Below, piece by piece: positions 32,382 to 34,043 of a stretch of DNA of 64,000 nt (its first letter is position 1; every line of letters begins with the position of its first letter). A program made the translations under genes and the position numbers. Under the pieces are notes generated by a model that was not told the origin of the DNA, ran no database searches, and saw only the letters and a program-made list of their open reading frames with translations. This DNA comes from Chitinophaga pinensis (GTDB lineage: Bacteria; Bacteroidota; Bacteroidia; NS11-12g; UBA955), in the NCBI GenBank assembly GCA_945877575.1, contig CAMDUE010000001.1, positions 124,001 to 188,000 on the forward strand, in the 5' to 3' direction.

Positions 32382-34043
32382 GTGCAACAATTTATAGTTT
32401 CTGCTCGAAAATACCGTCCAATGTCGTTTGACGATGTTGTTGGGCAAAAGCATGTAGCTGAAACGCTCATGCACGAGATCAAGAACAATAAATTAGCGCA
32501 AGCCTTTTTATTTACCGGGCCTAGAGGAGTTGGAAAAACTACCTGTGCGAGAATCTTAGCGAAGGTGATCAATACCACCGATGTGGTAAATGAAAACCAT
32601 GATTTTGCTTTTAATGTTTTCGAATTAGATGCTGCCTCGAATAATTCAGTTGATGACATGCGTCATTTGATGGATCAAGTTCGTATTCCACCGCAAGTTG
32701 GAAAATACAAAGTGTATATTATTGACGAGGTTCATATGTTATCTACAGCGGCATTCAATGCTTTCTTGAAGACATTAGAAGAGCCTCCGAGCTATGCAAT
32801 TTTTATTCTGGCCACAACAGAAAGACACAAAATTCTTCCAACCATATTAAGCAGGTGCCAAGTCTTTAATTTTAACCGAATTTTAGTAACCGATATGGTG
32901 AAACATTTGGTTGGAATTGCTGATAAGGAAGGAATTAAAGTTAGCGAAGACGCACTTCACCTCATTGCACGAAAAGCAGATGGTGGATTGAGAGATGCTC
33001 TAAGTATGTTTGATCAGTTGGTGAGCTTTTCTGGAGGTGAAATCACCTATGAGAAAGCCGTAGAAATGTTGAGTATTCTTGATATGGATACGTATTTTTC
33101 GTTGGCAGACAATATGCTCAACAATGATTCATCCTCTGCTTTATTAACCATCAATTCGGTACTTAATCAAGGATTTGACGCTTCTCTGATTACCAGTGGA
33201 ATGTCTCAGCATTTCAGAAATCTGATAGTTAGTCTCGACCCAATGACGAATTCATTATTGGATGTTTCTGAGTCATTCAAAGAAAAATATAAAGATCAAT
33301 CAAGCAAATTCGATATTCATTTCTTGCTCAATGCTTTAAATATTTCAAATGAAGCAGATGAGAAATATAGAATATCCCGAAATCATCGCCTTCTCATTGA
33401 ATTGATGATTTTGAAATTGGTGAATCTTCGTTCTTTCATGAAAGATATTCCCAATCTAAATGATCTAAAAAAAAAACTAGCTGATACATCAGCAACTCCA
33501 TCAACAAAATCACCTCAGACAGCTTCATTTAAAACAGCTCCATCCATAAAAGAAGATGTAGTAAAAAAAGTTGAGTCCACTCGAATGGGAATACTCAGTA
33601 GGGAAGCATTCAAACAAAAAAAGCAATCTTCTGTTGAAAATTCTCAAGATTCCATAGAAGAACTCCCCATACTTTTAGAAGCAGATTCCAAGCCAATCGA
33701 ACAGTTAGATATAGGTAAGATTATAGCTGAAATTGTAAAGAAACAAGGTCCAAGAATCGCTGGTTTGTTGAATTCAATTAAAACGGAATTACACGATGAA
33801 ACTTTGAAATTCATAGTTAGTTCCAAAATGCATATTCATACAATTGAAGAAATAAGACTTGAGTTACTTAAGGAGCTCAATCTACTTTCCAATGGTAGAA
33901 TCAAACAAATATTAGTAGAAATGGGAGAGGTGGAAGCCGTATCCCGAAAACCCTATACAGACAAAGAAAAATTGGAGTTTTTAATGTCCAAACACCCTCT
34001 GCTTCAAGAAGCAATTGAAAAACTTCAATTGCGATTGCCTTAA
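32382..34043 (+). CDS. dnaX: DNA polymerase III gamma/tau subunit (likely GTG start; ORF-track start 32343)
   Basis: VQQFIVSARKYRPMSFDDVVGQKHV; GPRGVGKTTCARI; IIDEVHMLSTAAFNAFLKTLEEPP. Contains A10 run at 33467-33476 (see findings). Confidence 0.95.
   Translation: MQQFIVSARKYRPMSFDDVVGQKHVAETLMHEIKNNKLAQAFLFTGPRGVGKTTCARILAKVINTTDVVNENHDFAFNVFELDAASNNSVDDMRHLMDQVRIPPQVGKYKVYIIDEVHMLSTAAFNAFLKTLEEPPSYAIFILATTERHKILPTILSRCQVFNFNRILVTDMVKHLVGIADKEGIKVSEDALHLIARKADGGLRDALSMFDQLVSFSGGEITYEKAVEMLSILDMDTYFSLADNMLNNDSSSALLTINSVLNQGFDASLITSGMSQHFRNLIVSLDPMTNSLLDVSESFKEKYKDQSSKFDIHFLLNALNISNEADEKYRISRNHRLLIELMILKLVNLRSFMKDIPNLNDLKKKLADTSATPSTKSPQTASFKTAPSIKEDVVKKVESTRMGILSREAFKQKKQSSVENSQDSIEELPILLEADSKPIEQLDIGKIIAEIVKKQGPRIAGLLNSIKTELHDETLKFIVSSKMHIHTIEEIRLELLKELNLLSNGRIKQILVEMGEVEAVSRKPYTDKEKLEFLMSKHPLLQEAIEKLQLRLP
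33467..33493 (+). other. Candidate dnaX frameshift/slippage element: A10 run plus hairpin GCTGA-TACA-TCAGC
   Basis: Codons cta aaa aaa aaa cta gct gat aca tca gca; A AAA AAA heptamer in zero-frame phase; stem at 33480-33493. Confidence 0.75.

Follow-up and report, generated by a model that had tools for sequence, protein, structure and literature searches.

A ten-adenine run in dnaX is a probable programmed transcriptional slippage site for tau and a gamma-like subunit in most Bacteroidota

The window, meaning the whole 64-kb stretch of DNA analyzed in this study, contains a dnaX gene that is open from the GTG at 32382 to the stop codon at 34041-34043 and whose protein begins with MQQFIVSARKYRP. 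The gene was identified by its TIGR02397 score of 394 bits (cut-off, 250), and its product also matched the E. coli gamma/tau chains in PDB structures. A run of ten A's begins eight residues past DnaX domain III, residue 362 being the Leu before the run, and the sequence at this point reads CTA AAA AAA AAA CTA GCT GAT ACA TCA GC. The features of the locus are as follows.

32382..34043, plus strand: dnaX, tau reading frame, 553 aa, GTG start (TIGR02397, PF12169, and PDB gamma/tau matches)
33045..33443, plus strand: DnaX domain III, residues 222-354 (Pfam PF12169)
33467..33476, plus strand: putative A10 slippery run, third base of codon 362 to codon 365 (sequence; a run of at least nine A's kept in 184 of 229 orthologues)
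33478..33480, plus strand: TAG that would end gamma at 365 aa if the mRNA run were one A short (sequence; closure of the frame conserved)
33482..33484, plus strand: TGA that would end gamma at 367 aa if the mRNA run were one A long or the ribosome slipped by -1 (sequence; closure of the frame conserved)
33480..33493, plus strand: 5-bp stem GCTGA-TACA-TCAGC, probably incidental (folding; within the genus common only to the sister species L004)
33477..34043, plus strand: tau-specific linker and C-terminal part (C-terminal HMM built from single-ORF genes)

Frame 0 does not end just past the run, and the window dnaX is therefore not a two-ORF gene. A net shift of -1 at the run would produce LKKN followed by the TAG, giving 365 aa in place of 553 aa, and a net shift of +1, or a -1 ribosomal slip, would produce LKKKTS followed by the TGA, giving 367 aa. 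When the sequence was re-read, the A10 run, the coordinates, the product lengths, and the stem given in the initial annotation all proved correct, as did the phased A_AAA_AAA heptamer. Its description of the run as the longest homopolymer in the window was also borne out, since no other homopolymer of nine or more bases occurs in the 64 kb.

A sense-strand run of at least nine A's, tau in one ORF, and TAG and TGA stops within three codons past the run are together the anatomy of Thermus thermophilus dnaX, a single ORF with an A9 run and stops in both frames for which transcriptional slippage has been established (Larsen et al. 2000, as described in PMC1088944 and PMC5009743). The run is A9 in Thermus, whereas it is A10 here; moreover, it lies approximately seven-eighths through the Thermus gene, whereas in the window it falls at residue 362 of 553, the end of domain III. 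Because of this earlier placement, gamma would be shorter here. Slippage was measured in Thermus, whereas for the window dnaX it is deduced from sequence.

We investigated how often runs of this length occur by combining the window, the flanks of the dnaX loci, and one pattern search, and the results revealed that long A runs are generally avoided yet retained at the dnaX site. The pattern search of the whole 2.5-Mb genome returned three A10 runs, dnaX included. Runs of at least nine A's were absent from the other ORFs of the window, compared with 4.3 expected under synonymous resampling, and in the ORFs flanking Bacteroidia dnaX loci there were 8 such runs versus 22 expected, with 1 versus 8 for runs of at least ten; elsewhere within 404 kb of dnaX, only five runs were as long. 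The run could have no function and merely reflect the use of AAA for Lys in a flexible linker encoded by an AT-rich genome, and AAA is indeed the commoner Lys codon in Bacteroidia dnaX (4403 AAA vs 1758 AAG). However, synonymous codon choice would leave at least nine A's in approximately 43% of the Bacteroidia genes having the run (24% expected under the same null in the genes other than these). This null, the avoidance of long runs elsewhere, and the closed frames and out-of-frame tau described below all argue against an absence of function, which the two-ORF relatives already contradict; we consider it very improbable.

Conservation was examined in 229 dnaX orthologues sampled at each rank from genus to phylum (genus, family, order, class, phylum). 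At the end of domain III, 184 of the 229 had a run of at least nine A's, comprising 155 of 169 from Bacteroidia versus 29 of 60 from other classes. Outside the genus, the run was found in 15/15 further genes of the family, 4/4 loci of the order's other family, and 125/139 further genes of the class. Run length was mostly exactly 10 across the orthologues, with codon phases 0, 1, and 2 all represented, and most run-length differences within the genus were edge substitutions that preserved the frame. A sequencing or assembly error is ruled out as the source of the window A10, because a 91%-identical relative (L004) has the run with identical frame and flanks and because all 11 dnaX genes recovered from the genus, the window included, carry 10 or 11 A's. 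Alignment of the relatives, which the initial annotation had proposed as a check, showed that they retain a run of at least nine A's rather than AAG codons and retain stops in both other frames. These findings suggest that decoding by slippage is the norm for dnaX in Bacteroidia, and not a peculiarity of Thermus and a few genera.

The alternative reading frames are closed far more often than expected. Of the 123 single-ORF genes that carry the run, 119 meet a stop within 15 codons in each of the other two frames, whereas a codon-shuffle null gave 55 ± 5 of 123 with a maximum of 75, and only 7 of the 39 single-ORF genes without the run have both frames closed within this distance. The frame that a -1 ribosomal slip never uses is closed within 6 codons in 103 of 123 genes, compared with 42 ± 5. 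Likewise, the third frame of the two-ORF genes is closed in 47 of 55, compared with 29 ± 3.5. In independent pairs on the tree, the run and the closed frames change together (six pairs for, none against; median p, 0.03).

The run-bearing genes were found in three architectures. Tau is in frame with the start in 123 genes, to which the window dnaX belongs. In another 55, the entering frame meets a stop after at most a few codons and the tau C-terminus is encoded at -1, and in three genes (L045, L059, and L142) tau lies at +1; among the same-family loci outside the genus, 9 of 15 are two-ORF genes with tau out of frame. Three run-bearing genes (L013, L110, and L220) could not be classified. In L013 (relative G007) and L220 (G236), the stop of frame 0 comes 72-79 codons past the run, and the last tau residues of L013 match in another frame. 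This may mean that the frame is broken a second time or that the assembly is in error.

The out-of-frame C-terminus has the properties of functional tau sequence. An HMM of the tau C-terminus built from the single-ORF genes matched 57 of 58 shifted ORFs and 0 of 116 wrong-frame controls, and the out-of-frame tau C-terminus had a dN/dS of 0.12 (median of 25 pairs), indicating purifying selection. In principle, this C-terminus could be made as a separate protein by re-initiation rather than as a fusion, since the two ORFs overlap or abut and translational coupling is possible. However, 37 of the 58 two-ORF genes have no ATG, GTG, or TTG between the upstream stop and 20 codons past the run, and the first ATG in the tau frame lies a median of 104 codons past it. 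The residues IIPPxYF right after the run are moreover the same in all three architectures of the Flavobacteriaceae-like genes. Since start codons are mostly missing and the residues at the run are conserved, tau must be read across the run, and re-initiation at ORF2 was ruled out, retaining a negligible probability. Frame 0 stops and the out-of-frame tau is under purifying selection; recoding is therefore required for tau in the 58 genes, and judged from sequence, the long subunit of approximately one-third of the run-bearing genes depends on slippage or recoding at the run. The initial annotation had proposed that slippage makes a short gamma in this organism; the runs of at least nine A's and closed frames kept by its relatives, nine of which within the family need recoding, support that proposal.

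A FastTree topology built from the N-terminal part requires no fewer than 23 changes of architecture, or 14 when only nodes with 95% support are kept. Slippage that supplies all three frames would account for this pattern, because the genomic frame of tau could then change repeatedly between 0, -1, and +1. Such changes could also be read as DNA-level slippage, with the run acting as a phase-variable contingency tract and the two-ORF species representing cells sequenced in the off state. Homopolymers do mutate by slipped-strand mispairing, and one locus differs from its close relatives by one A. Nevertheless, dnaX is a core replication gene, the architecture is constant within groups (e.g., all f10 and f5 loci), the run differences within the genus mostly keep the frame, and if the run were a contingency tract there would be no need for every species to close both other frames with stops. 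Phase variation is thus highly unlikely, although we rate it a little above an absence of function. The locus in question, L059, has nearly the same flanks as L133 and L060 (Flavobacterium) and carries A9 with tau at +1, whereas they carry A10 with tau at -1. The A9 sequence comes from a draft genome; it may reflect either a natural change of one A or an error of sequencing.

In E. coli, dnaX undergoes -1 ribosomal frameshifting at A_AAA_AAG, with a Shine-Dalgarno-like element and a stem-loop. The window gene resembles it in that gamma and tau would come from one gene, in its phased A heptamer, and in its near stop in the -1 frame (LKKKTS followed by TGA). In contrast to E. coli, the A_AAA_AAG shift site is absent from the window dnaX, where the site is A_AAA_AAA only, and no Shine-Dalgarno-like element precedes the run (upstream sequence, CCCAATCTAAATGATCT); a run of at least nine A's and a closed +1 frame are conserved instead of a stem-loop. 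The stem exists where the initial annotation placed it, starting 3 nt past the run and 6 nt past the first phased A_AAA_AAA. Its stability is low (-6.0 kcal/mol; z, -1.8) and was equaled in 12 of 200 shuffles of the downstream 50 nt, and within the genus the stem is missing from every relative except the sister species L004. Across the phylum, no downstream structure signal was detected in 183 relatives, and the mean folding z was -0.47 in single-ORF Bacteroidia versus -0.29 at control positions. The hairpin was consequently rejected as a frameshift stimulator for lack of conservation and of a phylum-wide signal, and the E. coli-style cassette that the initial annotation had read around it is unsupported. 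Read on the minus strand (33493-33467), the stem with the T10 looks like an intrinsic terminator; this was also rejected as a function, the stem not being conserved.

A -1 programmed ribosomal frameshift at A_AAA_AAA, with the hairpin as stimulator and transcription faithful, would nonetheless be compatible with the phased heptamer, with the 5-bp stem at its spacing, with the near -1 stop, and with the -1 position of tau in most two-ORF relatives, and phase-1 runs followed by G read A_AAA_AAG. Several results argue against it. Seven A's would be enough in phase 2, yet 75 of the 78 phase-2 runs of at least six A's are at least nine long; the stem is unconserved in the genus, and the sequence past the run folds no more stably than control positions do; stops close the +1 frame too, and three genes need the opposite direction; and the window lacks the upstream Shine-Dalgarno-like element. 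We therefore regard ribosomal frameshifting as the sole mechanism as unlikely, although it is the least improbable of the alternatives to transcriptional slippage.

A run length beyond ribosomal need, shifts in both directions, the closure of all frames other than that of tau, and the lack of structure favor transcriptional slippage, so that of the two precedents invoked by the initial annotation, the Thermus-like one is preferred and the E. coli-like one is not. On this basis, we propose that the A10 is very probably a programmed transcriptional slippage site that gives tau and a gamma-like subunit, and that it does so across most Bacteroidota. RNA polymerase copying the A10 would generate mRNAs with 9, 10, 11, or more A's. 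Those with 10 A's, or 10 plus or minus a multiple of three, would be translated into the 553-aa tau, and all other run lengths would bring translation to a stop no more than three codons past the run, yielding a gamma-like subunit of approximately 365-367 aa. This product would comprise domains I-III without the linker and the tau C-terminus and would serve as a clamp-loader subunit. The same slippery site would operate through most of the phylum. What the sequences record is selection for a slippery site, and from that selection we infer slippage in this organism, its transcriptional nature, and a function for gamma. Against the transcriptional reading, tau lies at -1 in 55 of the 58 two-ORF genes, the direction expected of ribosomal slipping, and of the three +1 cases, L059 may be a sequencing error. 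Because every A10 holds a phased A_AAA_AAA, and in one phase with a following G also A_AAA_AAG, ribosomal slipping can contribute, and it may add to transcriptional slippage particularly at runs that end in AAG.

The run is missing from L055, L067, L068, L069, L097, L100, L105, L107, and L111, which are mostly Bacteroidales, and from most loci of families f14-f23, f26, f31, f37, and f39. The run-less genes keep their other frames open longer (median later stop, 42 codons vs 5), a pattern that would fit loss of the two-product system in these lineages or its never having arisen in them. In-frame shift heptamers were found in four of them (L109, L170, L214, and L218), without a common pattern. 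These lineages, including many Bacteroidales, raise the question of whether and how gamma is made in them.

The other two A10 runs of the genome were also inspected. The second (contig C5, 153463-153472) splits a GldK-like gene with an FGE-sulfatase domain (L239:775-1895), in which ORF1 ends in PDKKKR just past the run and the rest of the domain lies at -1. In the sister species G011, the corresponding gene (L241) is one intact ORF without a run, and the split is thus lineage-specific; the split gene is slippage-rescued, phase-variable, or decaying. The third run (contig C4, L238:1501-1510) sits between two divergent genes.

Two-ORF dnaX genes with an A10 run are already known. Antonov et al. 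(2013) reported 17 two-ORF dnaX genes from 12 genera, nine of them with A10, and proposed transcriptional realignment; their argument that both shift directions in one gene family signify such realignment is the one followed here for the mechanism (PMC3711429). These genes share the run, the -1 direction, and the function with the genes analyzed here, and many relatives in the window's family are of this type, whereas the window gene is a single ORF and of the Thermus type by anatomy. A literature search, incomplete in coverage, found no paper on phylum-wide conservation or on switching between types. The spread over most of the phylum, the +1 examples, and the repeated switching of type are new here.

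For annotation, these findings mean that plain ORF calling would truncate DnaX, with loss of the tau C-terminus, in approximately one-third of the run-bearing genes. With three natural architectures available, some of them in closely related organisms, one can test directly how efficient slippage is, in which direction it goes, and whether gamma is needed. On a broader view, which we favor by a slight margin, a core replication gene would be free of the reading-frame rule at one point throughout the phylum: the A10 would supply all frames, single-base changes would let the tau frame drift among 0, -1, and +1 with little penalty, and RNA polymerase slippage would set the tau:gamma ratio.
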